The notes below the pieces were generated by a model. The model saw only the letters and a list, made by a program, of their open reading frames with translations, did no database searches and had not been told where the DNA came from. A stretch of 64,000 bases of DNA from a virus, in IMG/VR virus record IMGVR_UViG_3300042308_000216, positions 1-64,000 of that record; one strand, 5' to 3'. How positions within the stretch are numbered: the stretch's first letter is position 1; every line of letters begins with the position of its first letter. Both the position numbers and the translations under genes were made by a program. This document shows, piece by piece, positions 1,443-59,300 of this stretch.

Positions 1443-1469
1443 TTTTGTTTTTTATAAAAAATTTTTATC

Positions 1470-1788: not shown

Positions 1789-1804
1789 TAAAAAACTATA
1801 AGAT

Positions 1805-2534: not shown

Positions 2535-2551
2535 TTTAAAGATTCTAAACA

Positions 2552-2842: not shown

Positions 2843-3162
2843 TAATCAAAGCTCTTGAACAAACTTTTACTATTAAAGATTCTAAAGACGAGAATGGAGA
2901 ACCCATCACTCTTGAGATTCCAGGAAAGTTTATAGTCAAGAGAGTTGAGATTCATGAAGTAATGGAGTTCTCAGAAATTATTAATGAGAGAACTAATAAA
3001 CCATACAAAACTAGATGCCTACTTAGGACTATAGATGGTTGGTTACCTGTTAAACATTCTTTTGAACAGTTAATGGAAATGAAGAATACACCACAAAGAG
3101 TAATAATACGAGGATTATATGCTGCAGCAAGAGGTAGTAAAAGTACTAACAGAAATAAGTAA
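2839..3162 (+). CDS. Hypothetical 107-residue protein
   Basis: A 107-residue, mainly beta-type protein (FTIKDSKDENGEPITLEIPGKFIVKRVEI) with a basic C-terminal tail (AAARGSKSTNRNK). The four-base overlap with the preceding gene and the 44-base overlap with the IHF-like gene show a compact operon. No recognised domain; function unknown. Confidence 0.55.
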   Translation: MIIKALEQTFTIKDSKDENGEPITLEIPGKFIVKRVEIHEVMEFSEIINERTNKPYKTRCLLRTIDGWLPVKHSFEQLMEMKNTPQRVIIRGLYAAARGSKSTNRNK

Positions 3163-3382
3163 AAGGCATAATATATCATACAAAGATGCTAAGAGTATTT
3201 ACTGTGATGTGTTTGTTTTTTTAGAAGAAGAGTTTAGTAAAATAAATGATAATAATCCAGAAACTTGGAATAGTAACTGTATTGTCAAAAATTTTGGTAA
3301 ATTTGTAGTAAATAAAAGTAAATTAAAAAGATATGGAACTATCAAAAAGATTAAGGGAGAACCCAATGAACTCCCCACTTAA
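3119..3382 (+). CDS. IHF/HU-like DNA-binding protein
   Basis: An 87-residue protein of HU/IHF size. The N-terminal half is helical (VVKVLTEISKRHNISYKDAKSIYCDV) and is followed by IVKNFGKFVVNKSKLKR, which matches the conserved start of the IHF beta-arm region (xLxGFGxFxVxxRxxR). IHF-like subunits next to the packaging genes are a recognised feature of crAss-like phages. It would bend DNA, perhaps at the packaging site or during condensation. A second, more divergent member is encoded at 32721. Its start lies within the previous gene. Confidence 0.65.
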   Translation: MLQQEVVKVLTEISKRHNISYKDAKSIYCDVFVFLEEEFSKINDNNPETWNSNCIVKNFGKFVVNKSKLKRYGTIKKIKGEPNELPT

Positions 3383-3716
3383 GTTTATAGGAAGATTATT
3401 TGAACTTAGGGATGCTGCTCATGTTGAGCATTTAAAAACTAGAAGCTTTGCAGCACACAGTGCACTCAACGGATTTTATGATGAACTACTTGAATTAGCT
3501 GATGGCTTTGTAGAAAGCTACCAAGGTAAACATGGTATTGTTAACATTGATATTAAATACACAAAGCCAGATAGTTTCTTAACTTATCTTGAAGAGTTTG
3601 CTAAATATGTAGAAAGTTCAAGAGATGTGTTTAAAGATGAGTTTTTAAAAAACCAAGTTGATGAGATTGCATCACTAGCATACTCTACAATTTATAAATT
3701 AACATACCTTAAGTAA
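3366..3716 (+). CDS. DUF5856-type, Dps/ferritin-like phage protein
   Basis: The segment LKFIGRLFELRDAAHVEHLKTRSFAAHSALNGFYDELLELADGFVESYQG, all helical with regularly placed His, Glu and Asp, matches my memory of the DUF5856 family of large phages, a four-helix bundle related to Dps (starvation DNA-binding) proteins. The role in phages is unknown; DNA or metal binding is possible. I start it at 3366 (MNSPLKFIG), where family similarity begins and overlap with the IHF-like gene falls to 17 bases; the alternative start at 3333 adds eleven basic residues. Confidence 0.6.
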   Translation: MNSPLKFIGRLFELRDAAHVEHLKTRSFAAHSALNGFYDELLELADGFVESYQGKHGIVNIDIKYTKPDSFLTYLEEFAKYVESSRDVFKDEFLKNQVDEIASLAYSTIYKLTYLK

Positions 3717-4237
3717 TGAAGATTTTTGATCTAAAGGATAATGAGATTACTATCTCACCAGAGATCTTAACTATTGAGTGTTTTGAGACTCTTTGGAAGA
3801 GTGATAAGAGTAAAAATAAGATTAATGCTTACAACGACTTTAAGTATATTTACCATTTATGTGATTTCAACTCTCCATATAATAACTACTCAGAAGAAAA
3901 AAGAATTGAAGCAATCAAAGAGGAAGTTATCGGTAACAAAGAATATCAAGCTTCAGAGCAAGTCCAGCAGGCTTGTAAGATATACAAAGGACTAAAGGAA
4001 ACACCTATTGAAAGGTTGTTTAATAGTGTTAAGGATAAGATAGAAGAGATGTCAGACTATTTAAAAGAGAATACTCTTGATAGTGAATCAGTTACACCAG
4101 TATTGAAGATAATGGATTCTATTAGTAAGGTAATCTCACAATACAAGACATTAGAATCAGCAGTTAAATCTGAGAAAGAAACTACTGCTATTAAGAATAG
4201 AGGAGATAAAATTGTAAACACATCTTTTAATGTATGA
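3716..4237 (+). CDS. Candidate small terminase subunit (unproven)
   Basis: A 173-residue, largely helical, charged protein directly before the large terminase and overlapping it by four bases. The C-terminal half (about residues 95-160) looks like a long coiled coil (VKDKIEEMSDYLKENT, ILKIMDSISKVISQYKTLESAVKSEKE), as small terminases use to oligomerise. I cannot identify a DNA-binding helix-turn-helix. The assignment rests on position and architecture; an unrelated packaging accessory is possible. Confidence 0.4.
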   Translation: MKIFDLKDNEITISPEILTIECFETLWKSDKSKNKINAYNDFKYIYHLCDFNSPYNNYSEEKRIEAIKEEVIGNKEYQASEQVQQACKIYKGLKETPIERLFNSVKDKIEEMSDYLKENTLDSESVTPVLKIMDSISKVISQYKTLESAVKSEKETTAIKNRGDKIVNTSFNV

Positions 4238-6276
4238 TATTAAGTAATACAAAAGCATTCCTAGAGGCTAGAACAGAGTTTGAAACTACGGGATTTTATA
4301 CTAAAGCTCTTATTGGTACATACCAGTATAATGAGTTTTGGAAAGAGGAAGTAAGAAAGTGTATGGAAGGTGTAACTATAGGTAATGTCACAATACCTGG
4401 AACATATTATTTCTACCTGAACTACACTAGGATGCTTTTAAAAGATGAAAAAACTGGAAGAAAGACTGAAGGATTTCCTAGATTTACAGATGTAGATTTA
4501 GAATTCTTTACGTTAATTGAGCAAGCAAGAAAAGAGAAAAAAGGTTTTATCATGGTTAAGCCAAGAAGAACTGGATTTTCTTACAAGAATGCTGCACTAG
4601 TTGTACATGAATACAATTTTTTTAGAAATGCCAAGTGTATTATCTCTGCTTATGAAAATAAGTACTCAGATAATACAATGGCTATGACATTAAATAATAT
4701 TAACTTTTTAGATCAAAATACTGTATGGTATAAACCTAGAAACCCTAATACTCAAGACTATGTGAAGTCTAGACATCAACAAAAGATGGAAGATGGTAGA
4801 GATGTATGGGTAGGTTATCAATCTGATATTAGAAAAATTACATTTAAAGATAACTCATTTGCATCTGCAGGTATGAGTAGCTCTATTTTCCTATTTGAGG
4901 AAGCAGGTATCTTTAGTAATATCATAGAATCATACAATATTTCTGAGCCTTGCTGGAAAGATGGAGATGATGTTATTGGTATTCCTATTATTTATGGTAC
5001 AGGTGGAGACATGGGTGGTGGAACTGCTGCATTTTCTGAAATGTATTATGACCCAGAAAGGTTTAATCTCTTAGCATTCCCTAATGAGTGGGAACCTGAG
5101 AAGGGTAACCAACAATGTGGGTGGTTTTTACCATCTACTAAACAAAGATTTGGTGTATTCACTGACAAAGAAACTAAAAAAACTGTACCATTAGTAGATA
5201 ATGATGGAAATTCTAATGAAGAGTATGCTTTAAAGTCAATTATGGCTTATAGAGAAACTAAAAAAGGTAATCCATCAGCTTATAGAGATGCAGTAACACA
5301 ATATCCACTCACACCATCAGAAGCATTCTTAGTAACATCAGGAAATATGTTTCCTACTATGCTACTTAATGAAAGATTGGCTGATATTAAGGTTAATTCT
5401 CAAAAATATGTTGAGAGTAATTGGGTTGGTTACATTACACCACAAGAAGATGGTGAATTAAGGTTCACATCTATGGATAATGTATTACCACTTAGAGATT
5501 ATCCTATTAAACGTAGACCAGATGATGATATTAAGGGGTGTATTGAGGTTTATGAGCAACCTCAAAAAGATAGTGATGGGAAAGTCTTTGTTAGAAGGTA
5601 TGTTGTAGGTATTGACCCCTATGATGATGACTATTCTACTACAGATTCTGTAGGTTGTGCCTTTGTATTTGATAGATTTACTAGAAGAATAGTAGCTGAG
5701 TACACAGGTAGACCACAATTAGCTAAAGAATTCTATGAAAACTGTAGAAAGTTAATAGTATATTACAATGCTGCAGGATTTCCTGAGATTAATAAGTTAG
5801 GTTTTGTTACTTACATGGAACACAGAAAGTGTTTGCATATGTTAGCAGAAACTCCAGTACAACTTAGAGATAAGATTGAATGGAAACCTAATTTAAATAC
5901 ATCTTATGGGTTTAAAGCTACAGAAAGAACAAATACATGGGGTAGAGAGTTAATTAGAGAATGGTTATTAGAACCAATTGAACCTAACTCAGAAATACTT
6001 AATGTTAATAGACTCCGTTCTACAGGATTAATACAAGAATTGATTAAGTGGAATAAGGATGGAAACTTTGATAGAGTGTCAGCATTAATTGCTGTATTAA
6101 TACTAGATGTAACTTTAAACAAACAAGCAATACAAGCTGAAACAAGAAGTACTAAAAACTTTTTAGAATCTGACTTCTTTAAAGAAAGAGGATTTTTAAA
6201 GCACAGTGATGACCCATTTGCTGATAACAGCTATAGTGAAGGCGGTGCTTTTTTTAACAACATGTTTACCAAGTAA
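4234..6276 (+). CDS. terL: Large terminase subunit (packaging ATPase/nuclease)
   Basis: A 680-residue terminase of crAss type. It pumps DNA into the procapsid and cuts the concatemer. The N-terminal ATPase has an atypical Walker A, KPRRTGFSYK (residues 109-118), and a Walker B with catalytic glutamates, SIFLFEEAG (E222/E223). The C-terminal RNase H-like nuclease begins near VVGIDPYDDDYS, with D461 as first metal-binding aspartate and further acidic residues after it. Length is usual for the group. The start overlaps the upstream gene by four bases; the portal follows after 40 bases containing a promoter. Confidence 0.93.
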   Translation: MILSNTKAFLEARTEFETTGFYTKALIGTYQYNEFWKEEVRKCMEGVTIGNVTIPGTYYFYLNYTRMLLKDEKTGRKTEGFPRFTDVDLEFFTLIEQARKEKKGFIMVKPRRTGFSYKNAALVVHEYNFFRNAKCIISAYENKYSDNTMAMTLNNINFLDQNTVWYKPRNPNTQDYVKSRHQQKMEDGRDVWVGYQSDIRKITFKDNSFASAGMSSSIFLFEEAGIFSNIIESYNISEPCWKDGDDVIGIPIIYGTGGDMGGGTAAFSEMYYDPERFNLLAFPNEWEPEKGNQQCGWFLPSTKQRFGVFTDKETKKTVPLVDNDGNSNEEYALKSIMAYRETKKGNPSAYRDAVTQYPLTPSEAFLVTSGNMFPTMLLNERLADIKVNSQKYVESNWVGYITPQEDGELRFTSMDNVLPLRDYPIKRRPDDDIKGCIEVYEQPQKDSDGKVFVRRYVVGIDPYDDDYSTTDSVGCAFVFDRFTRRIVAEYTGRPQLAKEFYENCRKLIVYYNAAGFPEINKLGFVTYMEHRKCLHMLAETPVQLRDKIEWKPNLNTSYGFKATERTNTWGRELIREWLLEPIEPNSEILNVNRLRSTGLIQELIKWNKDGNFDRVSALIAVLILDVTLNKQAIQAETRSTKNFLESDFFKERGFLKHSDDPFADNSYSEGGAFFNNMFTK

Positions 6277-27357: not shown

Positions 27358-27816
27358 ATGAGTTCACCGACTAAAACAAGTTCTAAAGGAATTGAACTAA
27401 TTAAATCTTTTGAAGGTTTTTATGCAAAACCTTATATGTGTCCAGCTAATGTAGCTACAATTGGCTATGGTACAACTAGATATCCTAATGGTAAAAAAGT
27501 AACATTGAATGATAGTCCTATAACAGAAGCAGTAGCAATAGAGTATCTAAAAGATTCTTTAATAAAATTTGAACGTGATGTTGATGCTTTTTGCAGAGAT
27601 GACATTAATCAAAATCAATTTGATGCTATAGTATCATTCTGTTATAATGTTGGGTCTAGTGCTTTAAAATCATCAACATTATTAAAAAAATTAAACGTAA
27701 ATCCTAATGATCCTAATTTAGTACAAGAGTTTGCTAAATGGAATAAAGGTGGTGGAAGAGTACTAAAAGGTCTAGTTAGACGTAGAAAAGCAGAGGCTGA
27801 TTTATACTTTGCTTAA
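27358..27816 (+). CDS. GH24 lysozyme (endolysin)
   Basis: A 152-residue T4-type lysozyme (muramidase) that cleaves the MurNAc-GlcNAc bond of peptidoglycan. The catalytic glutamate is E19 in SFEGF, followed by the hallmark TIGYGTTRYPNG; the C-terminal part has QNQFDAIVSFCYNVG and a basic tail LVRRRKAEADLYFA. Where T4 has its catalytic Asp, the sequence reads PYMCPANVATIGYG, a Cys variant common in GH24 endolysins. I start at 27358, two bases after the previous stop; an upstream in-frame ATG at 27301 lies within the previous gene. No signal peptide, so it needs a holin. Confidence 0.88.
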   Translation: MSSPTKTSSKGIELIKSFEGFYAKPYMCPANVATIGYGTTRYPNGKKVTLNDSPITEAVAIEYLKDSLIKFERDVDAFCRDDINQNQFDAIVSFCYNVGSSALKSSTLLKKLNVNPNDPNLVQEFAKWNKGGGRVLKGLVRRRKAEADLYFA

Positions 27817-27833: not shown

Positions 27834-28304
27834 ATGAAGAAATTCTTACTCTGTCTGCCATTATTGTTGGTATTTACTTTCATAGGAGGTAATCAACCTG
27901 GTCCTTATATACAAGGAGATATAAGTATACAACCTATTGTAGAAAATGCAGATTTAGATATTAAGTATCAATATATAAGAAGCATCAAAGTATACTACAA
28001 AGATCCATTAGAAAAACCAATTATATTACAAAACAATGGTGCTATATATAACTATTGCTCAGATTCATCTGTAGTTATCTTTAAATCTGTTGCAGATTCT
28101 ATAAAGATACCTAGTGTTAAAAGAATGTCTTGTGAAATAATGGCTATCATTAACTTAACTAAAAGAGATTCTGAATGGTTAAAGTCACATATTGTTAATG
28201 AGGTTGCAGTAGTAAACACTATAACTGATAACAGGTTTTCTGTTTATATGGATGATACTGAATACTTTAGAAGACTAATGCTTAAATACAATGCAAAGTA
28301 TTAA
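27834..28304 (+). CDS. Exported protein of unknown function in the lysis region
   Basis: A 156-residue protein with a signal peptide (MKKFLLCLPLLLVFTFIGG) and a soluble alpha/beta remainder (SIKVYYKDPLEKPIILQN, IYNYCSDSSVVIFKSVADSIKIPSVKRMSC). No lipobox cysteine directly after the hydrophobic stretch. It lies between the lysozyme and a cassette of secreted proteins, and overlaps the next gene by 14 bases. A periplasmic role in lysis or surface modification is inferred from context only. Confidence 0.55.
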   Translation: MKKFLLCLPLLLVFTFIGGNQPGPYIQGDISIQPIVENADLDIKYQYIRSIKVYYKDPLEKPIILQNNGAIYNYCSDSSVVIFKSVADSIKIPSVKRMSCEIMAIINLTKRDSEWLKSHIVNEVAVVNTITDNRFSVYMDDTEYFRRLMLKYNAKY

Positions 28305-29175
28305 ATGGATACTTCTATTAATAACAAGTATAGGGTTTGCTCAATGTCCAAATATAGGATTTGAAAATAGTAACTTTAGTGGATGGGTAGGTAGCAGAGG
28401 TTCTTGTTGTCCTATAGTTATAACAAATGCAGGTATAGTTTCTAATAGGCATACTATAACATCAGGTACAGCAACAGATACTAATACTTGTAATGTAGTT
28501 CCAATAGTTGCTCCAGGTAGTACTCGTTCTGCTAGATTAGGTAATAATGATGTTAATGCAGAAGCTGAAAGCTTAAGTTATAACTTTACAGTAACACCAA
28601 CATCTAATTTAATTACTTATCAGTATGCTGTAGTGTTTGAAGACCCAGGACATACAGCATCACAGCAACCTAGATTTGAAGCATCAATAGTAAGAGCTAA
28701 TGGAACTGTTGTAGCATGTACACAATTTTTAGCAACTGCAGCTAGTGGATTAGCAGGATTTCAATCTTGTAATAAAGTTGATGTTTTAGGATATCCAATA
28801 GTTGTTAGATATAAAAATTGGAGTACAATAGCTGCAGATGTTTCTGCATATATGGGTCAAACTTTAACTTTAAGATTTAGAACAGGAGATTGTTCACAAG
28901 GTGGGCATTTTGGTTATGCTTATGTAGATGCTAGTTGTGGACCACTGCAATTAGCTATAGATTATTGTGTTAATGATATGTATGCTGTAGTTACTGCACC
29001 ATCAGGATTCTTTTCTTATCTATGGTCTACAGGAGAAACAACACAAACTATTTATGTAAATCCACTGCAAGCTATTACTGTTTCTTGCACTATAACAACT
29101 GCTTTAGGATGCACATCTGTAGTATCTGTACCTATAACACCAGTTGCTAATTTCCCTGCAATATATACCAATTAA
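28291..29175 (+). CDS. Secreted adhesin-like protein (gliding-adhesin N-terminal type)
   Basis: A 294-residue protein with an 18-residue signal peptide ending FAQ. Residues 19-215 match my memory of the jelly-roll domain at the front of flavobacterial secreted adhesins: FENSNFSGW, EDPGHTASQQPRFEASIV, VRYKNWSTIAADVSAYMGQTLTLRF, HFGYAYVDASCG. An Ig/PKD-like unit follows (SGFFSYLWSTGETTQTIYVNP). The tail ends FPAIYTN, like the next protein (TGIIYTD). Such domains are rare in phages and suggest capture from a Flavobacteriia host. It probably acts at the cell surface; the partner at 29774 supplies the T9SS signal. Confidence 0.65.
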   Translation: MQSIKWILLLITSIGFAQCPNIGFENSNFSGWVGSRGSCCPIVITNAGIVSNRHTITSGTATDTNTCNVVPIVAPGSTRSARLGNNDVNAEAESLSYNFTVTPTSNLITYQYAVVFEDPGHTASQQPRFEASIVRANGTVVACTQFLATAASGLAGFQSCNKVDVLGYPIVVRYKNWSTIAADVSAYMGQTLTLRFRTGDCSQGGHFGYAYVDASCGPLQLAIDYCVNDMYAVVTAPSGFFSYLWSTGETTQTIYVNPLQAITVSCTITTALGCTSVVSVPITPVANFPAIYTN

Positions 29176-29213: not shown

Positions 29214-29774
29214 ATGAAAAATTTGGTAATGTCAATTATTTTTATATTACTTTGTGTATCAAGTTATGCACAAGTACCTACACCCCTTGTTGCCAATGGG
29301 CAAACTGTCTGTGTAGGTGCTAACCACCATTATGGTGATCAAGTAATTACACCATCATCTAACTATGCATTTAGTATAACTCCTGTACAAGCATTTAGTG
29401 TTGTAGGAAAACAAATAAATATTACTTGGACTGTTCAAGGAGTATATACTATGACTATGACAGAGACAACATCTGCAGGGTGTCTATATACAACTACTTG
29501 TATTATCACTGTATTACCACCTATAACAGTAGCATTAGATCCTATTGTTGTATGTCAAGATGGTTTACCACAAACTATAACAGGAACTAACATTGGCTCT
29601 AACCCATCTTTTAGTGGAGTAGGAGTATCTAACAATACATTTAATCCTTCAGGTATATTACCTGGGATATATACTATAAACTTAACTTCAACAACAGCTA
29701 ATGGTTGTGCTACAGTAGGCACCACAACAGCAACAATAAATCCACTACCAACAGGCATTATATATACAGATTAA
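29214..29774 (+). CDS. Secreted Ig/PKD-repeat protein (SprB-like repeats)
   Basis: A 186-residue protein with a 20-residue signal peptide ending YAQ. Two Ig/PKD-like repeats follow: YAFSITPVQAFSVVGKQINITW ending TTTCIITVLPP, and ITVALDPIVVCQDGLPQTI ending TTTATINPLPTGIIYTD. The latter is typical of repeats in flavobacterial gliding adhesins of the SprB type. It has its own promoter and its stop codon overlaps the start of the T9SS-domain gene. Export across the inner membrane by Sec is likely; surface location would depend on its partner. Confidence 0.65.
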   Translation: MKNLVMSIIFILLCVSSYAQVPTPLVANGQTVCVGANHHYGDQVITPSSNYAFSITPVQAFSVVGKQINITWTVQGVYTMTMTETTSAGCLYTTTCIITVLPPITVALDPIVVCQDGLPQTITGTNIGSNPSFSGVGVSNNTFNPSGILPGIYTINLTSTTANGCATVGTTTATINPLPTGIIYTD

Positions 29775-30331
29775 TGAAACTATATGCATTATTTTGTTTA
29801 ATTAGTTTAAATATAAATGCACAAACAATTAGAGAATATGAACTATGCAATGATTATTTAACTAAAGAAATCAGGGCTGTAACTACAAATGCTACTGTAA
29901 GTTGGGAGGTTTCACCTTATGTACCATACCAAGTAAGTAATAATGTTATGACTATTACTTTTAACAGTACAGGTTACTATGTTATAAGTGCTGATTTTAG
30001 AAATGGTGATTGTTATAAAGAAGATAAAATAATAATAATAATAAAAGAATGTACAGAGACTTTTATTTATTTTCCCAATAGTTTTACACCTAATGGAGAT
30101 AATGACAATGAAAGCTTTGGACCAAAAGGAATAAATGTTTATGATTTTAAAATGTATGTATATAACAGATGGGGAGAGTTAATCTTCACTGCAAAAGATA
30201 TAAGTGATAGATGGGATGGCTATTATAAAACTAGAGTATGTCAAAGTGATATCTACGTTTATAAAGCCTTCTATAAAGATAAAAGAGGTAAGGAGTATAA
30301 CAAAATTGGTAAAATAGCACTAATTAAATAA
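29774..30331 (+). CDS. Secreted protein with T9SS type B sorting domain
   Basis: A 185-residue protein: signal peptide (1-17, ending NAQ), one Ig-like domain (about 41-92) and a C-terminal domain at 99-185 reading YFPNSFTPNGDNDNESF, YVYNRWGELIF, DRWDGYY, YVYKAFYKDKRG, KIGKIALIK. This is the gliding-motility-associated, type B sorting domain recognised by the type IX secretion system of Bacteroidota. It should be carried over the outer membrane and be anchored or released. I use the start at 29774, which overlaps the previous stop by one base and gives a perfect signal peptide; the longer frame from 29705 does not. Confidence 0.85.
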   Translation: MKLYALFCLISLNINAQTIREYELCNDYLTKEIRAVTTNATVSWEVSPYVPYQVSNNVMTITFNSTGYYVISADFRNGDCYKEDKIIIIIKECTETFIYFPNSFTPNGDNDNESFGPKGINVYDFKMYVYNRWGELIFTAKDISDRWDGYYKTRVCQSDIYVYKAFYKDKRGKEYNKIGKIALIK

Positions 30332-30654: not shown

Positions 30655-30895
30655 AGACTCATTCTTTGAATCTCTCAAAGGCAGTAATGGTAAAATAGAC
30701 CATAAACGATTAACAGTATTAGCTTTTGTATTAGTGTTTATTGGTATAACTATAATAGGCTTGTATAAAAAAACACCTATTGTAAACCAAACACTAATGG
30801 AAACTATACTGTATATAATTGGATCTGTTATATTAGGAGGGATGGGATTAACAAAAATAAAAACAAAAACAGAAACAACCAATGAAACTCAGTAA
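30638..30895 (+). CDS. Candidate holin
   Basis: An 85-residue protein with two membrane helices (about 26-44, VLAFVLVFIGITIIGLY, and 53-74, METILYIIGSVILGGMGLTKI), a short loop and a lysine/threonine-rich C-terminus, the usual class II holin build. It lies directly before the M15 peptidase and 2.8 kb after the lysozyme. I chose the start MSKVTKDSFF at 30638, which overlaps the preceding gene by 17 bases; the alternative at 30602 would add twelve residues. Confidence 0.6.
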   Translation: MSKVTKDSFFESLKGSNGKIDHKRLTVLAFVLVFIGITIIGLYKKTPIVNQTLMETILYIIGSVILGGMGLTKIKTKTETTNETQ

Positions 30896-31394
30896 AAACT
30901 TCGCATTAGATGAATTAACCAAATCACCATCTGCAACTAGATGGGGCTTTGAAGAACAGTTTACACCTACACAAGATGTAATAGATAACCTTACTTTATT
31001 ATGTGTTAAAGTGTTACAGCCTATTAGAGATATCCTAAAGGATTCAATAACAGTTACATCTGGATATAGATGTCCTAGATTAAATGCTAAAATTGGTGGT
31101 GCCTACACTATTATCAATGGTAAACCTGTACAGAGTTCACAGCATTGCTTTGGACAAGCTGCAGATATTAACTATGTTAAGTCAGATGGAGACCACAATA
31201 ACTTAATCTTAGCAGCAGTCAAAGAACTAATGTCTGACCCTAGCTTTACTTTTGACCAATGTATAGCAGAATTTGGTACAGAGAGTAATCCTGCTTGGGT
31301 ACACATCTCTTATTCTAATAAGAAAAACAGAATGCAAGTTCTTAGAGCATACAAGTCAGGTAAAAAAACTTTATATAAAGAGTGGAAACTATGA
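30882..31394 (+). CDS. M15-family peptidase (peptidoglycan-cleaving)
   Basis: A 170-residue zinc peptidase of the D-Ala-D-Ala carboxypeptidase/endolysin group. It has the opening SKNFALDELTKS, the motif VTSGYRCPRLNAKIGG, and zinc ligands H88 and D95 in SSQHCFGQAADI and H141 in AWVHIS. These are the family's HxxGxAxD and WVH signatures. As a second peptidoglycan hydrolase beside the GH24 lysozyme it would cut stem peptides. It overlaps the candidate holin by 14 bases and the next gene by four. Confidence 0.85.
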   Translation: MKLSKNFALDELTKSPSATRWGFEEQFTPTQDVIDNLTLLCVKVLQPIRDILKDSITVTSGYRCPRLNAKIGGAYTIINGKPVQSSQHCFGQAADINYVKSDGDHNNLILAAVKELMSDPSFTFDQCIAEFGTESNPAWVHISYSNKKNRMQVLRAYKSGKKTLYKEWKL

Positions 31395-46072: not shown

Positions 46073-49000
46073 ATGCCTGGAGAAAACCTTGGTACCACCA
46101 CTATTGCAATTCCTTTACAGAAAATAAAACCGTATAAACCTACAAGTACTACACAAGCAGTACCTGAAACTTATGCTGGTCCTCAATCTAGATATGATGA
46201 TAATTATTTCATAGATCAAAGTAAAATGAACTCTGAATTTTTTCAGAGTATGAGAGCTGAAAATCAAGGGTTTGGTATGGAACTAGCTACCGCTGGTGCT
46301 AACCTTATTCCTAATATTGCATTAAGTATTGGTGAAACTGCTGGTTATTTATTTGATGTTGAGGATTGGTCAAACATGATTCAAGGAAATAAAACTGATT
46401 ATGGTAATGCTATAACTAAATGGGCTAGTGATAACAAGAATCCCTTTGGTCAAGTATACACAAAAAGCACTGATGGTGGTTTTGATATGTCAGACTCTGC
46501 TTGGTGGGTATCTAATGGTGGAGGGTTAGTAGAGTCTTTAGTTGCTTTTGGAATAACAGGATTTGGTGTTGGTAGTGTATTAGGCAAAAGTGCTTCTATG
46601 CTATCAAAAACATTAGGTGCTTATGGTAAAACTAAATTTGCTATTGAGGGTGCTGCTAAATTAGGTACTTCATTATCATTAGCATATAGTGAAGGTGCTA
46701 TGACTGGTGCTCAAGTATTTAAAGATGTGTATGATGATACCTATAATTTTGAGTATTTAAAAAATGTAAATGCAGGTATGGGGGATAAGGAAGCTAAAGC
46801 AAGAGCTCATTATACTGCTACTGATGTTGCAGGTGAAGGTGCAACTAAAGCTGTTAGAACTAATACACTAATTAATACATTTTTAAATATACCTGAAACA
46901 AATGTTCTATTTAGAAGTATGGGTGCATCTAGATATATAGATGATGCTTTAAAACTTCAAAAAGGAGAATTTGCTAGAGATGCTGTTGAAAGAATAAAGA
47001 AATTTGATGTTAATAAACATTTAACTAGACAAGGTATAGAACATTGGGGCAAAGAAACTGGCAGTGAAATGTTAGAAGAGATGGTCAATGTTTATGCTGA
47101 AGAGTCAGGTAAAAATGTTGGTAGGCTAGCTACAGGACAAGACATTGTTTCTCTTGGAGATATGCTAGCTAATGATGATATATGGGCAGCAGGATTCTGG
47201 GGTGCTATTGGTGGTAGTATGAATGGTTTTGTTATGGGTAAAATGCCTAAGTGGGTTGTCCAAGAAGATGGAACTAAAAAAAGAACTACTGTTGGTGCAT
47301 ATAATAAAGAACAAGTAAAAGATAAATATAAAGAACAATTAACTGACCTTCAAGATAGATTAACAGAATTTGTTGATGCTAGAGATGCTTTAGATATAGC
47401 AGCTAAGTCAGGTGATGAAAGAGCTTATAAAGAAGCTGCTGACAAAGTATTTAGTTATAATAGTTTCAACTCTATTGTAAAAGGTACTGAAGAACAGTTA
47501 CTAAATGATTTTCAAGAGATAGCTGCATTTACTCCTGAGCAAGCTGCACAACAAGGTTTTGCATCAGACTACAAAGAAAGAGCTACTGAAAAAATACAAT
47601 CTGTTAGACAAAATACAGCAGAGTGGAATAAGATTCAAGATAGACATTCTTCACAGGATTTAGATCAAGCAGGATTTCCTGAAACTATTTTTCAGCAACA
47701 CATGAATGTTCAGAATAATAAAAAGATTATTCAAGATAACACAATTGAACTTGCTAAATTAGAATCAGAGATAGCACAAGCACATGTATTAAGAGGTACA
47801 GATTTAACAACTACATCTTTTAATGATGTTAAATCTAGTATTGATGCTGTTGAGCATGCTTTTGAAATGGCTGCTAAAGATTTAAGTGATATTGACTCAT
47901 TAAGCACACTTGATAGTAAAACTAGACAGAAAAAAATAGCAGAGCTTAGTAATAAATATGGTAATATTGAAAATGCTAAAATACAAATACAAAAGCATTT
48001 AGAAGAACTAGAAGAAAAAAGAGAAGACCTATTTAATAATTTAGAAATTCAAAAAGAAAATTTCTATTCTTTCATTGACCCTGAAAACACAATGTCAGAT
48101 GATGAAAAACTAGATAGATATAAAAATATAATTGCACAGAATAGTTCAGATATATATTCATTAACAGAAGGTAAGAAAGTATTAGAAACAAATAGAAAGA
48201 TACTAGCTTCACAGATAGAAGAACTTAGAGTATTAAAAAGTGATAAAGGTCTTGAAAGATTTAAAGCTCTTAAGAAAGAAAAGATGGCTGAGAGAGATGC
48301 TCTTGATGCTCAAGCTGCTGCTAAAGCTAGAGCAGAAGCAGAGGCTAAAGCTAAAGCTGCTAAAGTTGAAGAGATTAAAGTTAAAAAGAAAGAAGCTCCA
48401 GAAACAGTAACACCACAAGAAGAAGAGATTATACAAGCCAACACTCCTGTAGAAAGTTTTGAAGAAGGTGTTTACTCAGGTGAAGGTTCAAATAAAGAAG
48501 GGTTAGAAGAGCAGTATAAAGAAATTACAAAGATAGCTGATAACTCAGATGAAGAAGGTAAAGTTAAAGACAGCTCTGGGCAAACTATTTCTGTTGGAGA
48601 TAAACTTATGTATGGTTCTAACAAACTAGCTTATGCTAGTACTGTTGAATATATTGTAGAAGATGATAAAATTAAACATACATCATTAAAACTTAATCCT
48701 GAGACTAATCCTGATTTATTAACTGATAAATATGTACCAGGAACTAAATTAAAGATAAAGAAGTTAACACCAGAAGAATTTAAATCACATGAGTTTTTTG
48801 CTCCTGATAATATTAAATTTATAGATGAAGTAGGTAGAGAAATATTAGTTGCTAATAAAGGACAGAAAGTAACATTTGAAATGTTAAGCCATCCTTATAT
48901 GCAACCCATTGGTATATACAATGAAGCAGGAGAGTATCAAGCTATGCTGCATGCTGTTACTTATATTAATGATAATAGAGTTGTATCTGAGAATGTAGAA

Positions 49001-52000
49001 ACTGATTTACAAACTTTAATTAATATTAGAGCTGCTGTTACAAATGAATTTCAAGATATTAAACTTAGTTCTAAAAGTAATGGTAAACTAAACCAGTTAC
49101 CAATGTTCTATAGATTATCAGAACTTATTGATGAGAATGTAGAGTTTGCTATTGCAACATCATCTATTCAATTAAACACTAGTAAAGTAACACCTGTTGA
49201 AAATTTAGCTAATACTAAAGGCTACAAAGTAGGTCAGGTATATGCATTAACTGTTATGCCTGATGGTAGAAAGTTAGCTGTACCTGTAAAGACAACTAAG
49301 ATTAAAGAAAACCCACAAGTACTTACAGAGTTAATGTCTGCTTTAGATATTTTCTTAAAAGGAGGTAATAGAGAAGACTTACAAGCTGTTTTTGGTAAAT
49401 ACTTACATTCAGTATTTAGTAAAGATAAACTAACACCAGATGGTAATTCTTTTCAAGAAGACCCTAATGGTAATGATAGATTCTATATTGACTTTACTTC
49501 AACAAATGTTAAAGGTATTATATTTGGAAAAGCAGGATTTTCTAAAAACTTTATTAGTGGTGATACACCTATAGATGCTTTAGAAGGATTAAAAAAAGAG
49601 TTAGCTTCTATTATTCAAGAGAGTTATATCAATCTTAATTTTCAAAGCTTAAAAGACCCTGATTTTGTAAAAACATATGTAACAAGTAATGTTAGATTTT
49701 ATCCATTACCTAATGGTAAGGTAACTGTGTTTGATAATCCAGTACTTGGATTTGACCCATCTACATTAATAAATGCTACAGCACCTGCTGCTAAAGTAAC
49801 ACCACAACCTATTGTTACACCTACAACACAAAGTTCTGAATCTGTCTTTAATATAACTATTGAACAGATAAAAAACAATATAGCAGAATTAAGAGCTAAA
49901 GAACAAGCAGAGTATGCTGCTATTGATCCTAATGATACAGCAGCAAGAAAAAAGATTTATGAAGACTATAATAAATTAATTACTACTTTAATAAATGAAG
50001 CAGAAGCTGATATAGAAAAAAGAAAAGAAGCAGAGTTAGAATTAGAATCTGAAAGAATTGTAGAAAGTACTGAAATTTGGAAAGATGAAGAAGGTCGTTT
50101 ATTTAGAATTGATAAACTAAAAAACGGTAAACAAAGATTAGCCGCTACAGATGAAGAAGGTAAACTGCTTAGTGTAATAGATATCTATGAAGGTTCTGTA
50201 TCTCCTACTAAGTTTATAGCAGATGGAGAAAAAGTAAAAGACCAAGAAGTAAAAGAAAATAAGATAGTAGATAAAATTAATGCTAAATATAAAGAAGAAC
50301 TAGATGCTGTAAAACAAGTTAAACCTACTACTACACCTATTTCTGATATAGAAACTAAAAAAGCAGATATAGAAACTGCTTTTGATTATATAACTACTCG
50401 TAAATATAAAGGTGAAAATAATAGATTAAATGAAATAAATAAAATTGGAGAAGATCTTGCTAAACGCTTTGTAGCTACTCTTAAAGAAAAAGGTTTAGTT
50501 AAAGAAGACTACAGAATGGCTCCTAGAACTGATGGGTCTGTAGAAAAAATGAAAGTAAATACAGATGATAAAGGTAATAATTTAGGAAATGATTGGAGTA
50601 CTGCTGGTAAATTTAAAGATGAGTTTAGAAAATTTGTTAATGTAGAATTAGCTTCTTTAAAAAGTAAAGCTACTACTACACCTACAGCACAATCAACTAC
50701 AGATACTAAAGCTGAAATAGAAAAAAGATTAAAAGAAGAAATTATATCTTTAGAAAAAGATTTAAAGGCTATTAAATTTAAAGATGGAAATACACTAGGA
50801 AAAATGTTTCCTGATTGGTCAGTAGAAGCTGCTACTTTTATAAGAGAACATTTTAAAAAAGCTGTTACTGAAGAAGATTATAATAAAGCAGTAAGATATG
50901 AAAACCTAGTAAACCATTTTGATGCTGTAGTTAAAAATGAATTAAATAAATTAACACTTCAACCTACAGCTCAACCTACTGCTGCAGATATTAAAGCTGA
51001 TATAGAAAATAGAATTGTTATTACTGGAACTGACCAAGGATTTGAAGTATATAATACATCAAATATTAAAAATGAGAAAGCAGGAACTGTAGCTGATGTT
51101 AGAAGAAAGTATTCTGATGATAAATATGAAATAGAATTTGGTAAAGGAGATGATAAAAAAAGTATTTTTTCTGATATAAATTATGGTCAAAAAGAAGATT
51201 CCTATCATTATTTTATAACAGATAAAAAAACAAAGAAGAGATACTACGTAGTAGGAATTAGCAGTAGAGTTACTGGTACTGATCCCCAAAGAGATGGAAG
51301 TCTATTTGCAACTATAGAGGACGATGGTAATATTACAGATTTTACAAGAACAGTATTAGAACTTGCTCTTATAAAAGAATTTGAAAATCAAACGAAAAAA
51401 AGAAAGAATATATTTAGACCTTTACCACAAAAATTTATTGACAAAGTAAAAGCTGCAGAACAAGCTGCTTTAGGGCAAGCTCAACCTACACCTGCTACAG
51501 AAACACCAACAACTCCACAAGAAAAAGGAGAGTTTTCTATTCAAGGTACATTTCGTGGATTAACTCATGTATTAGGTGATCCTGCTAATATGATTCCTGA
51601 TCTTAGAGATACAGGATTTATTGATAAGCCAACTTTTTCTGAATCTGTTCAAAAAGGTAAAAAGTTTTTTACACTTTCTATTCCACAAGCAGATGATGTT
51701 TATAGACAAGGCTATTTATCAGTGTCTTTAGTATTTCCTGAAACAACAACTAAAACAATGGCTGATGTCAAAGCTGCTTTAGAAGCAAAAGTAGCTGAAG
51801 CTAAATCTGTTATTGCAACTGCAAGAGATAAAGGATCTAATGCAGAAGCTTTTTTAAAAAACAAGGTTAGTGCAGAATACACAGAACAACCTTCTGTAAC
51901 AGAACCAGTACCTGTAGTTGAACAACAACCTGTACCACAACCTACAGTTGAATTAAAATCTGCTGGTGGAGCAAAGTTTAACTTGAAACTACCTAAAGAA

Positions 52001-53338
52001 GATTCAGATTTAAGTATAACTACTACAGAAGAACTAGGTGTTGAACAAGTAGCACAAGAAGTATTACCTGCTTTAGAAGATAGATTAAGAGGATTTTTAT
52101 CATCTATTAATGTAGATACATTAGTTGTAGATAATTTACAAGAAAGATTAAAAGAAAAAGGATTGAATACTGATGCTGTTGCAATATCAGATATATTACA
52201 CAAAGCAATATTCCTAGATTCAGAAAGGTATAATACTATGGATTATGCTGAAGAGGTTGCTACTTTTGCAATTGAGTTTATGGGAGCTAGTAAACATGCT
52301 GAGGCATCTCCTTTAATTAGAAAAGCACTAGACAATATATCAAGTTGGGAAAAATACCAACAATACTATGATTTATATAAGGATAATCCTATTTATAAAA
52401 ACAACGAAAGAAAATTAAAAGTTGAAATACTTAGTAAGCTATTAGCTGAAAAAATAATAGAGAATAAAGATAAAACTAAAAAAACAAAACAAGATAAAAA
52501 GCTAACAACTTTAGAAACTATTATTAATGACATACTAGCTTTGTTTGATAAAATATGGAAATCAGATTACTATAGAGCTGTTGATAGATTTTTAAAACAA
52601 AAAGGTATTCAAACTAAAGGAGTTAATAAAATTAACATTAGACCTTTTGATGCTGTAATAAATGAGATTGTAGATGATATACTATTTAATAATACATCTA
52701 AAATAATTAATAATGCTAATAGAGCTAGAAAAGGAGAAACTGCTGTTTCTTTAAAAGAAGTTTTAGAAAACAATCCTACTATAAATGAGATATATAATAA
52801 ACTAAACTCTTTAGGTTTTATGTTTACAGGTTCTCCTGCTCTTTCAAATGAAGGAACTATATACAGAGAATCTAATGATACTTTACATGATTTAGATTGG
52901 CAAGTACCAAAAGAGTTAGAAGATAATTGGTTAGACATAATAAAAGAAACTTTTCCAGAAATAGGGTATAAGATTAATGAAAAAACAAATCAAGCTCAGA
53001 TTTTTAGTAAGGGTGAAAAAACTACTCACACTTTAATGATTAAAGGAATGCCTGTTGACTTTTTTATAAGTGTTAATCCTCCATCCAATAAAAATACATT
53101 TGGAGATATGAGATGGCAGGATACCTTTGAAGCTAAGATGGATATAGGTAGAGACAAAGACATCAGAGACTTAATTGACTTTAAAACTTTATTTAATGAT
53201 TACTTTTCAAATCCTGGTTACTTATATTATTCTTTAGGTCAAGTTAAACCAGGAAAACAAATTGAAAAATATGTATCTTTGCAAGATAAGGTTAACACCC
53301 TTATAGAAGAAGGTAAAGCAACTAAATTTTGTAAGTAA
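46073..53338 (+). CDS. Giant mosaic virion protein with C-terminal nucleotidyltransferase-like domain
   Basis: A 2421-residue protein directly before the vRNAP. Residues 70-400 include Gly/Ala-rich amphipathic segments (IPNIALSIGETAGYLF; SLVAFGITGFGVGSVLGKS) of a type that could help DNA ejection through the membrane. Then come coiled coils (about 440-800), beta domains, and a series of short domains separated by Thr/Pro/Gln linkers (TTTPTAQSTT, QPTAQPTAAD, QPTPATETPTTPQ). Near the end GSPALSNEG (G2253-S2254) and LHDLDW (D2273, D2275) resemble the hG-GS and DxD signature of a MNT-type nucleotidyltransferase. The last codon overlaps the RNAP start (TAATG). Confidence 0.65.
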   Translation: MPGENLGTTTIAIPLQKIKPYKPTSTTQAVPETYAGPQSRYDDNYFIDQSKMNSEFFQSMRAENQGFGMELATAGANLIPNIALSIGETAGYLFDVEDWSNMIQGNKTDYGNAITKWASDNKNPFGQVYTKSTDGGFDMSDSAWWVSNGGGLVESLVAFGITGFGVGSVLGKSASMLSKTLGAYGKTKFAIEGAAKLGTSLSLAYSEGAMTGAQVFKDVYDDTYNFEYLKNVNAGMGDKEAKARAHYTATDVAGEGATKAVRTNTLINTFLNIPETNVLFRSMGASRYIDDALKLQKGEFARDAVERIKKFDVNKHLTRQGIEHWGKETGSEMLEEMVNVYAEESGKNVGRLATGQDIVSLGDMLANDDIWAAGFWGAIGGSMNGFVMGKMPKWVVQEDGTKKRTTVGAYNKEQVKDKYKEQLTDLQDRLTEFVDARDALDIAAKSGDERAYKEAADKVFSYNSFNSIVKGTEEQLLNDFQEIAAFTPEQAAQQGFASDYKERATEKIQSVRQNTAEWNKIQDRHSSQDLDQAGFPETIFQQHMNVQNNKKIIQDNTIELAKLESEIAQAHVLRGTDLTTTSFNDVKSSIDAVEHAFEMAAKDLSDIDSLSTLDSKTRQKKIAELSNKYGNIENAKIQIQKHLEELEEKREDLFNNLEIQKENFYSFIDPENTMSDDEKLDRYKNIIAQNSSDIYSLTEGKKVLETNRKILASQIEELRVLKSDKGLERFKALKKEKMAERDALDAQAAAKARAEAEAKAKAAKVEEIKVKKKEAPETVTPQEEEIIQANTPVESFEEGVYSGEGSNKEGLEEQYKEITKIADNSDEEGKVKDSSGQTISVGDKLMYGSNKLAYASTVEYIVEDDKIKHTSLKLNPETNPDLLTDKYVPGTKLKIKKLTPEEFKSHEFFAPDNIKFIDEVGREILVANKGQKVTFEMLSHPYMQPIGIYNEAGEYQAMLHAVTYINDNRVVSENVETDLQTLINIRAAVTNEFQDIKLSSKSNGKLNQLPMFYRLSELIDENVEFAIATSSIQLNTSKVTPVENLANTKGYKVGQVYALTVMPDGRKLAVPVKTTKIKENPQVLTELMSALDIFLKGGNREDLQAVFGKYLHSVFSKDKLTPDGNSFQEDPNGNDRFYIDFTSTNVKGIIFGKAGFSKNFISGDTPIDALEGLKKELASIIQESYINLNFQSLKDPDFVKTYVTSNVRFYPLPNGKVTVFDNPVLGFDPSTLINATAPAAKVTPQPIVTPTTQSSESVFNITIEQIKNNIAELRAKEQAEYAAIDPNDTAARKKIYEDYNKLITTLINEAEADIEKRKEAELELESERIVESTEIWKDEEGRLFRIDKLKNGKQRLAATDEEGKLLSVIDIYEGSVSPTKFIADGEKVKDQEVKENKIVDKINAKYKEELDAVKQVKPTTTPISDIETKKADIETAFDYITTRKYKGENNRLNEINKIGEDLAKRFVATLKEKGLVKEDYRMAPRTDGSVEKMKVNTDDKGNNLGNDWSTAGKFKDEFRKFVNVELASLKSKATTTPTAQSTTDTKAEIEKRLKEEIISLEKDLKAIKFKDGNTLGKMFPDWSVEAATFIREHFKKAVTEEDYNKAVRYENLVNHFDAVVKNELNKLTLQPTAQPTAADIKADIENRIVITGTDQGFEVYNTSNIKNEKAGTVADVRRKYSDDKYEIEFGKGDDKKSIFSDINYGQKEDSYHYFITDKKTKKRYYVVGISSRVTGTDPQRDGSLFATIEDDGNITDFTRTVLELALIKEFENQTKKRKNIFRPLPQKFIDKVKAAEQAALGQAQPTPATETPTTPQEKGEFSIQGTFRGLTHVLGDPANMIPDLRDTGFIDKPTFSESVQKGKKFFTLSIPQADDVYRQGYLSVSLVFPETTTKTMADVKAALEAKVAEAKSVIATARDKGSNAEAFLKNKVSAEYTEQPSVTEPVPVVEQQPVPQPTVELKSAGGAKFNLKLPKEDSDLSITTTEELGVEQVAQEVLPALEDRLRGFLSSINVDTLVVDNLQERLKEKGLNTDAVAISDILHKAIFLDSERYNTMDYAEEVATFAIEFMGASKHAEASPLIRKALDNISSWEKYQQYYDLYKDNPIYKNNERKLKVEILSKLLAEKIIENKDKTKKTKQDKKLTTLETIINDILALFDKIWKSDYYRAVDRFLKQKGIQTKGVNKINIRPFDAVINEIVDDILFNNTSKIINNANRARKGETAVSLKEVLENNPTINEIYNKLNSLGFMFTGSPALSNEGTIYRESNDTLHDLDWQVPKELEDNWLDIIKETFPEIGYKINEKTNQAQIFSKGEKTTHTLMIKGMPVDFFISVNPPSNKNTFGDMRWQDTFEAKMDIGRDKDIRDLIDFKTLFNDYFSNPGYLYYSLGQVKPGKQIEKYVSLQDKVNTLIEEGKATKFCK

Positions 53339-56300
53339 TGAGTAATTGTCAAACGACTTTCCAGGATAGAACTATCCCTTCTGGGGATTTTGAATTTCAA
53401 ATAGCATCTAACCAAATTGATTTATCACCAACAGACAAGTCTGATTTAGATACAATGTCTTTACTGACATTAGACTTATCAACAATACCTTTACTATCTC
53501 CTGATAAGATTAACTCTGCTCAACAAGAGGAGATGATTAATTGGTTAACAGGTGAAGTAATTAACTTCTCATTAAATAATGCTGTTAAAGGTGTTGATGA
53601 AAAAGAGTTAATAAATAATGCTTTTAACGATGCATCAGAGCTTCTTAAAAGCGGTGCTTTACAAGCTGTAGAATTAGGTATACCAATATTAGAAGAAAGA
53701 ATAAACAGTATTCTTGAGGTATATGATAAGCTAAAAGAGATTGTACAAATTAGAGTTAATAATTTTGGTATTGATTTTGAAGCTGATGCTGTTACACCAG
53801 AAGATGCTACTGAAAATTATGAAGAAGATAAAGCTTTAAAAGTAAATCCTTATACAAAAATTGGTCAGGAAATTAAAAGACAGCTTTTTACTATTTATGA
53901 TTTAGATAGTTTACAAGAGGATGGTTCTTACACAGAAGATGATGTAAAAAGAACTTGGTTTGGATTCCCTGCTTACAAATCTATTAACCAAGTATTACCC
54001 ACAATACTATCACACTCTAAAGATTTACCTGCAGAGTTTGATGTGATTAAAGCAAAGATGCTAGATAGCAAAGATGCTAATAAATGGTTTGTACCCTTAC
54101 TTGATAAATTAAGTGAGGCTGATGGACAAGTTAGAAATCAGTTTTCTAGATGGGCTAGTAAAGCACAAATCAATTTAAAGTATTTATTGTTTGATACCAA
54201 GACTAATGAGTTTCAATTTAACAATAGTAACTCAGGTAGGCAAGTAGATATCATAACTAACAAATGGAAGAATAACCTTATACAAACAGAGCTATTTAAA
54301 ATTAATCCAGACACTAATGAGTATGAGTTAGATAGAGAAAAAGCAGATGCTATAACTAAAAACTTTGAAGCATTCAGTGAAAAGTATAAAATGCTTAAAG
54401 AGAATTATCCAGAAGAGTTATTTACAGAACTGGCTGATATCTTAAAAAGTATTGGTGTTGATATTAAACCAAGAGAAATTAAAAGAATGCAAAGGTTTCT
54501 TGATACACAAGGAACCAAATGGGGGAATAGTCCAAGAGCTAAATTTAGTCAGTTCTTTGTAGCTGATAAAGGTGCAGTGGATTTTATGATTCAAAGATTA
54601 TCTAAAGCAGATAAAGAAGCTGAAGGTTCTTTTAATAAATACAATCCACTATCTAATAATACTGGTGTTAGAGCATTAACATTGTTATACTCTTATTACC
54701 AAGAAATTTCTACTAATGATTCTTACAAGAATAGTAACAATGATACTATTTATGCATATAGTCCTAAGAAATATGCAACAGACCAATTTCAAAGAATAGC
54801 TGATACAGCTTATTTAGGTAGATTAATGGAAACTCAATTTGCTAGTAACTCTACTTGGGGTAAAGCATTGATGTCTGAGGATCCTGATACAAGAGCTAGA
54901 TTTCTAGAAGTATTCACATTAGATTATTTTGATGGTGCTACAGGTAAAGGCTCTAAATTAAATACTCCATTTGACCAACTATCTGCATCTGAAAGAGAAA
55001 AGTTTTTACTGACTTGTTTTCAAAACCAAAATAGAAAAGTACAAAGTAAATACAGATATGGTTCTACTTCTTATCTAACTATGTCTGATAAGAAAACCTT
55101 AATTAGTGTTCAACATATATTAGAAGATGTTGATATTAATCCAGAAACAAATAAGCTAGGTAGTAAAAGTATTGACTTATTATATCAAGTATTTAAAGCA
55201 GAGCAGCAAAGGATTAGAGAATTTGAAGCATTAAGTGCAGAGAATAAAAAAGGTTTATCAAAAGAATATGTAAAAGGTGCAAAAGAGTATATCTTAAATC
55301 CTTGGGTTACAAAATATAAAGCTGAAGGAAAAGAACTTGACTCATCAGAAGATGTTAAAATAGCTATTGAAGAATACTATAATGATATTATAAATACTAA
55401 AATAGCTACTTGGAAAGAGGTTGGTATTATATCTACAGATAATGAAGATAATATAACTACAACTTTTGATAAAGAGTATTTTGAGAATGTTAAAAATAGT
55501 AAAGTAGGTAGTAAAGCAAATATTAATGCTGCTATTGCTTATGCTGCTATTGACTATGAAGTAAATACAATAATTGGTAACTTAAATCTATTTCAATTAT
55601 TTGCTGGTGACCCAGCTAGTTATTGGAAAAACAATGTTGATGATACATTAGTAAATGTTGGTAAACGTCTAGCAGCACAGATTGCTCCTGGAGATTCATT
55701 AGCTAATACTAGATATACAGACATTGCTGGTATTAATGGGCATAGCTATACACAAGTTATTGCTAAAGACCATAAAATGATATCATCATCTATCAAGTAT
55801 CTAACTAAGCTGCTTGATGGTAAAGAAGTTACTGATAAAGAGATTGAAGATTATAGAGCAGGTAATACTAAAGCAATAGAAGAAAAATATCCTAATGCTG
55901 CAGCTTACTTTGATATAGAAGCTACTGATGCTCAGGAATATACTACAGCATTAGAGCATGCTTACAATCTATACCATGAAGGTAAGTTATCTGATAAAGT
56001 ATATAAAGACTTAGCAAATAAATTAATTAATGATAGAGAGTTAAGTGATAGTGATGTTAAAGTGCTAATGCAACCTATGAAACCAGTTTACTTTAATGGT
56101 GATGTTAAGTCAGCAGGTACTGGTTCATTAAATTATTATGATATGTCTTACATTAAGACTTCATCATTTCCATTGTTAAAAGAATTTACAGTAGGTACTG
56201 AGCTTGACAAGTTAAGAAAACAACTAGAGAAATTACAAGACCCAACTGGTTCTAAAGACCCTAGCCAAATTAAACTTGTTAGAATGGTAATGAGTTCAGG

Positions 56301-59300
56301 TATTAAGATTGGTGCTGTGCAGAATCCTGTAACAGTATTCAATCCTGATGGAACAGTTAATCCTGATATTGACTTTACAAGCTCTACAAAGTCTTTAACT
56401 AGAGATGGATATAGAATTCAGTTAGAGGTTCCTTTAAAAGATAAGAAAGAAGTTAATAGAGGTACACAAGAGATTAAACTTTTGTTTACAGATTTACTTG
56501 ACCATAAATTTGCTAATGGTAAAACAGGACAACAGTTAAAAACTGAATACCTTGATTTAAACAGACAACTATTTAAAACTCAATTAGAGATATTTAAAAA
56601 CCAAATAGATGCAGATGAAAAAGGTGAATTTAATATTCAACTATTAAGAGATAAACTAGTAGAAGAAGCACAATCAAGAAACTTTTCACTGAATGAGATT
56701 GAGTCTTTGAGACTAGTTGATTTAGACTCTGAAGGTAAGTTTGTAATTCCATTAGTTTTTAACTCAGCATCAGATAAGTTTGAAAGCTTAATGATTTCTT
56801 TAATAGATAACTCTGTTAGAAAACAAAAGCAAACTGGTTACAGCTCTCCATTAGGTTCATCTTCTGGATTTAAATTTCAGAATGACCTTAAAAGTATAGA
56901 TAAGAGTAAAATTATTTGGGTTGAAGGTTTTGATCCATCAGGAGATTTAAAGCAACAAAGAATTGTAGATGGTAAAGTAAGAGGTTCACAAGTATTTGTA
57001 CCTTGGAAATTCAGAGATAACAATGGTAAGCTTTTAAATGCAAAAGATTTTACTAAAGAGTTGCCTGATGGTAGAATAGTAATTGATCATGATAAATTAC
57101 CAAAAGATATATTAAAGTCATTTGGATTTAGGATTCCTACACAGGGATTAAACTCAATGGCTTATATTGAGATTGCAGGATTTTTACCAGAAGAATCTGG
57201 TGACTTGTTAATTGCACCTGCTGAATTTACAAAGCAGATGGGTTCTGACTTTGACATTGATAAATTATATAGTTACTTATATACTACAGAATTTAATTAT
57301 AAAACTGGTAAACTAGAAAAGTTTGTATTTAATAATAAAGATGTATTTGAAATACTATCTAGTACTAACTCTAGTTTAGTTACTAAAGACAATAAAGATT
57401 ACAGATTAAAAACATTAATCAAAGAGTTTGGATATATTAAAGTAGCCAAATCTCTTTTCCAATTTTATAACAGTAAAATAGATACTCTTAAAAAAGAGTT
57501 AGATGATAAGTGGTCATTACATGAAGCTTTTGTAAGTAATGTACTAGACACTATTGATGTTAAAGAAGCATCATTGGATACAAATAAAACATTAATCAAT
57601 AAAGCTTTTAGAGAGAATGAAATCTATGTTGCTTTCTTGAGAGATGAGTTATCAGAGTTAAGGTCTGTAATATCTGCATTAGAGAAAAATGAATTAGATG
57701 AAGGTGTTAATGAATACCTTGTAGATAAATTTGATATCTATGTAGATGAAGTAAGAACAGAAAGTATAAATGAATTACTTAGAAAAGAGTTTGAATTAAA
57801 TAATAGATTAGAAAAATCTGTTGTAATAAAAGAAAGTCTTAAGAAGTTTAATGCTTCTATTAGTGATACTGTAAAAGTTGCTTTAGATATTAAGAATGAT
57901 ATTTTTGAGACTAAAAGAGATTTAAGAAATATATTAAAGTACACTAGTACATTACAGAATGAAATTCTAGATATGCACATCACAGTGCTATCTGACCCAT
58001 CAGATTTAGTACAGTCTAAAGTAACATCAGCATTAGGATTTGGTAAGCTAGGTGAACTTAAAAAGGTATATGATAAAGAATCTAAATCAAAAGCAGAAAG
58101 TACTAGCCCTTTATCATCAGGATACCAATCTCAGAAATATTTATCTGCAAGAGGTGGTAAAGCAGGTACAGGATACTTTAGTGCATTAAATGTATTTGTA
58201 TCTGTTATGCAGGGACTAGGATTAAAGTATAATGTATCTACTCCTGTAGATAATGGTAAATTTGCAATGATAGAGAAAAACCTAGTTATCCATAAAAAAG
58301 GTAATGGGTTGAGTAAGAATGTTGATAACATGAATAACCTTAAATCTGAGAATGCTGTAGCATACCAATCAGCAGCTGTGGATGATGAGAAAGAACAGAT
58401 TATGGCTTCTCTTAATATCACATCAGAAACATTCTATGCTATTGGTGCATGGATATTAGATGGTCATTCACAAGAAGCTATTACAGGTATTTTAACTCAG
58501 CCTATTGTTGCTGAGTATATCAATGCAATCAATAATAAAACAGATATTTTTTCAGATTTTACTAAGAATGCAGATCTTATTGTGTTTAATGAGTTGTATG
58601 AAAAGTACTCTAAGATGACAGGTCTTAGTCAAGAAATATTAAATGAAACTGATTTTAATAATACTGTATTATCAGAAGATGTTTTATGGAATTCTTACAA
58701 AGCTACTACTAAAGATGCTAATTGGGCTATGACTCAATTAACTGCTCTACATAAATTTAGAGAAGCTGATGTTATGGGTAAAAGCATACAAAAAACCATC
58801 AGTGCATTTAGTGTGGATTCTAAAGGATTAGGTAAATCTTTTATAGAAGTTGGTTTAAAGTTAGATGATATTAAAACTGAAAGAGAAAGTGGTAAAATTA
58901 CTAACATAGAAAAACTACTTAATCAATCTGTAGGTGGATTAGCTGTGCAATATTCTTTAGAAACAGTTCACCAACTATTTAGTAAGTTCTACCCATACTT
59001 AATTCCTGAAAGTTATAACAAAGTTACTTTTGATGAGTATTTACAAGTTACATTTAAAGATAATCTTTCAGCAGAGCAAAGAGAAAAAGAGTTTAGAGAT
59101 TTCTATAACCACATGAAAGCTGGTGTGTATGCAAATATGCTTCAGCAACCTGGTGTAGATTTATATACTAGAAGAAAAGAGTTAATGTATGGTGAAAATT
59201 CATTAGGTAAAAGAGTACAAGAACTGCAAAAAACTACTAAGAACCCATTTTTAATTAAACTTACTCCTAATGTAGCTACTATTGTAGGAGATCCTGATAC

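Follow-up and report, generated by a model that had tools for sequence, protein, structure and literature searches.

Cargo proteins of the type IX secretion system (T9SS) that carry a type B sorting domain need a PorP/SprF-like shuttle (PMC12618676), and shuttles of this kind anchor the cargo at the cell surface (PMC9143113). In Flavobacterium johnsoniae, overproduced type B fusions require their shuttle, and some type B substrates are orphans, served by a common shuttle whose gene lies elsewhere (PMC12618676). The host substrates SprB, Fjoh_3952 and PG1035 combine a signal peptide with a type B domain (PMC12618676, PMC9143113), as does the phage protein described here. They are single chains, usually adjoining a shuttle gene, whereas the phage unit comprises three chains and lacks a shuttle gene. 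Host type B proteins hold N-terminal domains and Ig modules like those of the phage proteins A and B, again within single chains. The F. johnsoniae orphan substrates are similar in having no adjacent shuttle gene, but they are not phage-encoded and a split cassette is not described for them (PMC12618676). The grappling hook protein GhpA of Aureispira (PDB 9flp, with solved structures) has a C-terminal domain related to that of phage protein C, but is a bacterial single chain of 5898 residues.

A phage-encoded T9SS cargo is not reported here for the first time. Cryophage carries three T9SS type A cargo genes (PMC7468147), and crAss-like contigs have been noted to hold ORFs with T9SS domains next to BACON proteins (PMC6949934). 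Cryophage resembles the present case in that phage proteins are tagged for the host T9SS and vary among phage relatives; however, its type A domains are placed on enzymes or a PA14 protein (PMC7468147), and Cryophage is not known to have a split multi-gene cassette or a C-terminal docking peptide. The ORFs beside BACON proteins share with our locus the crAss-like background and the proximity to structural genes, but they receive a passing mention (PMC6949934), and no domain type or cassette is known to have been reported for them. A search for the type A domain (PF18962, Por_Secre_tail) gave no match in the 5 records examined. The literature search, which had subscription papers and preprints outside its scope, found no description of a type B split cassette.

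The virus record and the gene neighbourhood of the cassette

The window, i.e. the whole analysed stretch of 64,000 nucleotides, belongs to a crAss-like virus record of 95.9 kb (95,877 bases). Its membership in Crassvirales is indicated by TerL, portal and major capsid proteins matching PHROGs phrog_6681, 6547 and 11589, and the portal protein aligns with crAss-like phage records at ∼30–34% (tblastn). Genes for three secreted proteins, A, B and C, lie in the order lysozyme, D, A, B, C, two small membrane/coiled-coil genes, M15 endolysin (Table 1). The lysozyme of the window retrieves lysozymes beside other cassettes, and a homologue in contig L012 (6579-7034) matches PF00959 with an E value of 1.7e-41. 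No match was obtained in a family search with protein D, and none above the cut-off with the two small proteins. A homologue of D also adjoins the A-B-C cassette in contig L116 (4952-5449). Further downstream, positions 46073-64000 are occupied by giant ORFs, one of 2421 aa followed by another running beyond the window end, which look like the large virion RNA polymerase region of crAss-like phages.

Table 1. Features of the cassette region (positions in the window unless a record is named) and two further type B ORFs
Feature	Position	Strand	Basis or remark
GH24-type phage lysozyme, lysis-module context	27358..27816	+	homology to lysozyme copies
Protein D, 156-aa signal-peptide protein, unknown fold	27834..28304	+	kept neighbour in related phages
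Protein A, signal peptide and host-adhesin-like N-terminal domain, without sorting domain	28291..29175	+	ends FPAIYTN-COOH
Protein B, signal peptide and two Ig/PKD-like domains, without sorting domain	29214..29774	+	ends PLPTGIIYTD-COOH
Protein C, signal peptide, one Ig-like domain and type B T9SS C-terminal domain, 185 aa	29774..30331	+	TIGR04131, CHU_C
Type B sorting domain of protein C, last ∼87 residues	30068..30331	+	profile matches
Two small membrane/coiled-coil proteins, 104 and 97 aa	30340..30895	+	holin/spanin-like by position only
Peptidase M15 endolysin	30882..31394	+	PF08291 47.2 bits, cut-off 23.2
Type B ORF, 1670 aa	L177 (LR756502.1) 1258-6270		
Type B ORF, ∼126 aa	L178 (LR745206.1) 5881-6261		

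The A-B-C set was found at the same position, between the lysozyme and M15 endolysin genes, in 9/9 related contigs, although in one of these (L021) the stretch starts near the end of B and only C and the downstream genes are readable. This position in the window clade points to a possible role in lysis, in which periplasmic A, B and D, together with C acting at the outer membrane, would weaken the envelope or the surface layer as the cell lyses. A lysozyme gene is also located near the cassette in three other contigs (L057, L120, L125), and in L140 two small membrane proteins are encoded between B and C, both of which agree with such a role. However, domain searches with A, B and C revealed no enzyme or pore domain, and near many other carriers no lysis gene homologous to that of the window was seen. 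We regard a function in lysis as unlikely.

Protein C and its type B sorting domain

The earlier note had proposed, from the sequence of this ORF, a signal peptide and a complete type B pattern in the C-terminal 87 residues, and both were confirmed. The N-terminus, MKLYALFCLISLNINA-Q, is typical of Bacteroidota signal peptides (signal peptides were called by eye and by a hydropathy heuristic, not by a dedicated predictor). All of the quoted motifs (YNRWGELIF, WDGYY and KIGKIALIK) are present, and the last of them, at the C-terminus, fits the end of a type B domain. The search with the T9SS type B model TIGR04131, suggested at that stage as a check, yielded 51.2 bits (curated cut-off 35; E 1.1e-13) over residues 99-174, while PF13585 (CHU_C) gave 48.5 bits (curated cut-off 27). 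This is the only type B domain in the 95,877-base record. A profile built from phage C proteins alone also retrieved the C-terminus of Aureispira GhpA (E 2e-7). AlphaFold2 models of C and A were of low confidence (pLDDT 49). The sorting domain formed a four-strand sheet in such a model, and Foldseek with the model of C returned only generic beta-sandwich matches.

The start codon of C overlaps the stop codon of B (TAATG). Protein C is under purifying selection, with a dN/dS of about 0.11–0.31. Taken together, sequence, selection and conservation give good support to the view that protein C is a T9SS type B cargo with a Sec signal, and its place between the lysozyme and endolysin genes fits late expression. 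The host would then have to be a T9SS-bearing member of the Bacteroidota, as had already been concluded. The earlier picture of a single exported protein was only partly upheld: the phage-encoded T9SS cargo stands, but C is the anchor part of an A-B-C cassette and not a lone protein. C as a lone moron gene is ruled out by conservation of the cassette.

No gene for a PorP/SprF shuttle (PF11751) was found in 9 phage records, some of which are fragments. C would therefore be an orphan substrate dependent on a shuttle of the host, and we infer that it is exported through the host T9SS in this way. Since hosts also have orphan substrates with no shuttle gene next to them, the missing shuttle does not exclude C from the type B cargo. 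On the other hand, because F. johnsoniae fusions need their shuttle and no cognate gene was found in the phages, export may be weak or fail. In a different explanation, C is a jammer or decoy that fills the translocon or the PorP/SprF shuttles and so blocks the export of host adhesins used as phage receptors, with A and B blocking or capping. Besides the missing shuttle gene, this would be in line with the finding that secretion of type B cargo fails when its shuttle is missing (PMC12618676) and with the retention of the conserved sorting-domain motifs in short C proteins. A decoy needs no partners, yet partners of C with matched C-terminal peptides are conserved, and the host-adhesin domains of A point towards display. 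Jamming of the T9SS has, in our opinion, a low probability.

Partner proteins, their C-terminal peptide and distribution of the cassette

The core domain of A is similar to the N-terminal portion of Bacteroidota host proteins, with E values down to 6e-57, and several of these proteins end in type B domains within the same chain. The single-chain layout of host adhesins was not found in the phage, where A, B and C are encoded by separate ORFs and each has a signal peptide of its own. The N-terminal domain of A is a different one in contigs L003 and L010, and an additional one is present in L008, L012 and L013, with B and C kept in all five. A is thus modular and is exchanged among phages that retain B and C. 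Searches of PHROGs with A, B and C gave no match, and neither did searches of phage GenBank entries with A (L012 copy) and B.

Both A and B terminate in a peptide (tail) of the form I-x-[HT]-[NDYF]. Directly before the stop codon, the tail in the window clade is IYTD in B and IYTN or IHSD in A. The codons of the tail vary while its residues hold, which places the conservation at the level of protein and not DNA; a DNA element (promoter or translation signal) was rejected on the same grounds. An isopeptide (tag/catcher) linkage through the terminal Asn or Asp was also rejected as a general mechanism, since the last residue is Tyr or Phe in some tails. B homologues picked by homology alone, regardless of the tail, mostly end in I-x-[HT]-[NDYF]. 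Each of three A families is found with different tail classes, and the class is that of the adjoining B wherever a comparison was possible, although the classes partly track phylogeny. In 257 Gb of bacterial genomes the tail pattern gave two matches, neither of them at the end of a likely gene.

The earlier note had suggested looking for the same cassette in other phages, and this search was productive: in addition to the related contigs, B-C pairs were found in unrelated viral contigs of up to 298 kb. A scan of IMG/VR for type B motifs covered at least 119 stretches, a sample chosen by the motif of the C-terminal domain (CTD), and an HMM identified a C-terminal type B ORF at at least 98 further loci. 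Among the scan loci listed, 31/80 complete type B ORFs were 170–205 aa long, like C. Using the pattern [ILV]-x-[HT]-[NDYF], a neighbour with a tail was present at 24/32 short CTD ORFs, and the tail occurred in 41/153 neighbouring ORFs compared to 8/572 distant ORFs (again among the loci listed). In many viral contigs the B homologue is located directly upstream of C, mostly at a distance of -1 to +2 nt. This split arrangement, a B with a tail immediately before a short C, is also that of the window. The distances among B and among C proteins are correlated (Mantel r 0.725, 0/9999 permutations).

Several loci depart from this pattern. In contig L163 (3102-4639), a type B CTD protein of 185 aa is not accompanied by tail partners, and the gene directly downstream has a start that by eye resembles PorP/SprF, a host-like layout; the contig could represent host DNA or a provirus. 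The type B ORFs of two huge-phage records (∼640 kb) differ greatly in size (Table 1) and are not arranged as A-B-C. In L087 (8129-9022), an unrelated protein (MAQPSSRQTLIDYCKRQLGAP...) lacking a signal peptide has the C-terminal half of a B-type protein joined to its N-terminus, which could result from recombination or misassembly.

Bacterial proteins differ from the phage set. In 395 Bacteroidota genomes, all matches to the B profile were in frames of 604 aa or more, inside long single chains, and a standalone B was absent (both among the matches listed), while narrow B patterns gave no match in genome contigs. These data bear on the explanation that the genes were captured from a host and have no role, or are host DNA misfiled as viral. 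All of the domains do have host homologues, and the host-like contig L163 would suit such an origin. It is nevertheless disfavoured, and we consider it very improbable, given the purifying selection on C, the fixed position in all nine relatives, the co-inheritance of B and C, the absence of a standalone B among the matches listed for the bacterial genomes, and the phage genes of the carriers: structural genes in the window and terminases in 5/22 carrier records, including contigs of 294 and 298 kb (the other records are mostly short fragments).

Two tail-fibre-like proteins without a signal peptide, in the related phage contigs L019 (4916-5569) and L020 (12390-13460), end in SPTGTIYTN, the same C-terminal peptide. 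This may be a coincidence or a shared docking peptide. It could be taken to suggest that A, B and C are added to virions after these have left the cell and, as virion parts, serve in adhesion or receptor binding. However, no type B domain was found in these two contigs, none of the structural proteins of the window carries the tail, and T9SS type B cargo is known to be anchored to the cell (PMC9143113). A virion role appears improbable.

Proposed assembly on the host surface

The reading we favour, with a probability of roughly 0.55, is that the cassette encodes a host-type T9SS type B surface adhesin which is split into three chains and swappable, the chains docking by their tails and C being delivered to a host shuttle. 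Each of the three proteins would use its own signal peptide to pass through the inner membrane via Sec. The host T9SS would recognise C via the type B domain and hand it to a host PorP/SprF-like shuttle, which would retain it on the outer surface. Docking of A and B to C would be non-covalent, via the C-terminal peptide I-x-[HT]-[ND], although both proteins could instead remain in the periplasm.

The tail would most likely serve as first strand in the Ig domain that follows, that of A entering B and that of B entering C. In this way the order A-B-C would recreate the host single-chain protein. In bacterial B-like proteins, the position of the phage tail corresponds to the linker into the next Ig domain, and the mature phage C mostly begins 6–8 residues ahead of its first Cys. 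Both observations fit a host-type chain that has been cut, probably inside the linker or the first strand, so that the tail may supply a strand to the following subunit. As the models were poor, strand donation is drawn from the alignment.

A broader proposal, to which we give slightly less than even odds, is that this is a widespread phage system of surface display, with three chains reassembled by a matched tail 'code' through Ig strand donation, A being swapped and one minimal T9SS anchor kept. At a late stage of infection, the cell would present the variable domain of A on its surface. The most likely advantage to the phage would be surface remodelling, either by masking receptors against re-adsorption or by altering cell adhesion.

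If this is true, lytic phages would rebuild the outer surface of Bacteroidota through the host T9SS by a modular plug-in design, with viral type B cargo using the shuttles of the host. The assembly of Ig domains by a short C-terminal peptide would be a new kind of non-covalent linkage, and protein C would offer a minimal anchor of ∼90 residues for surface display.
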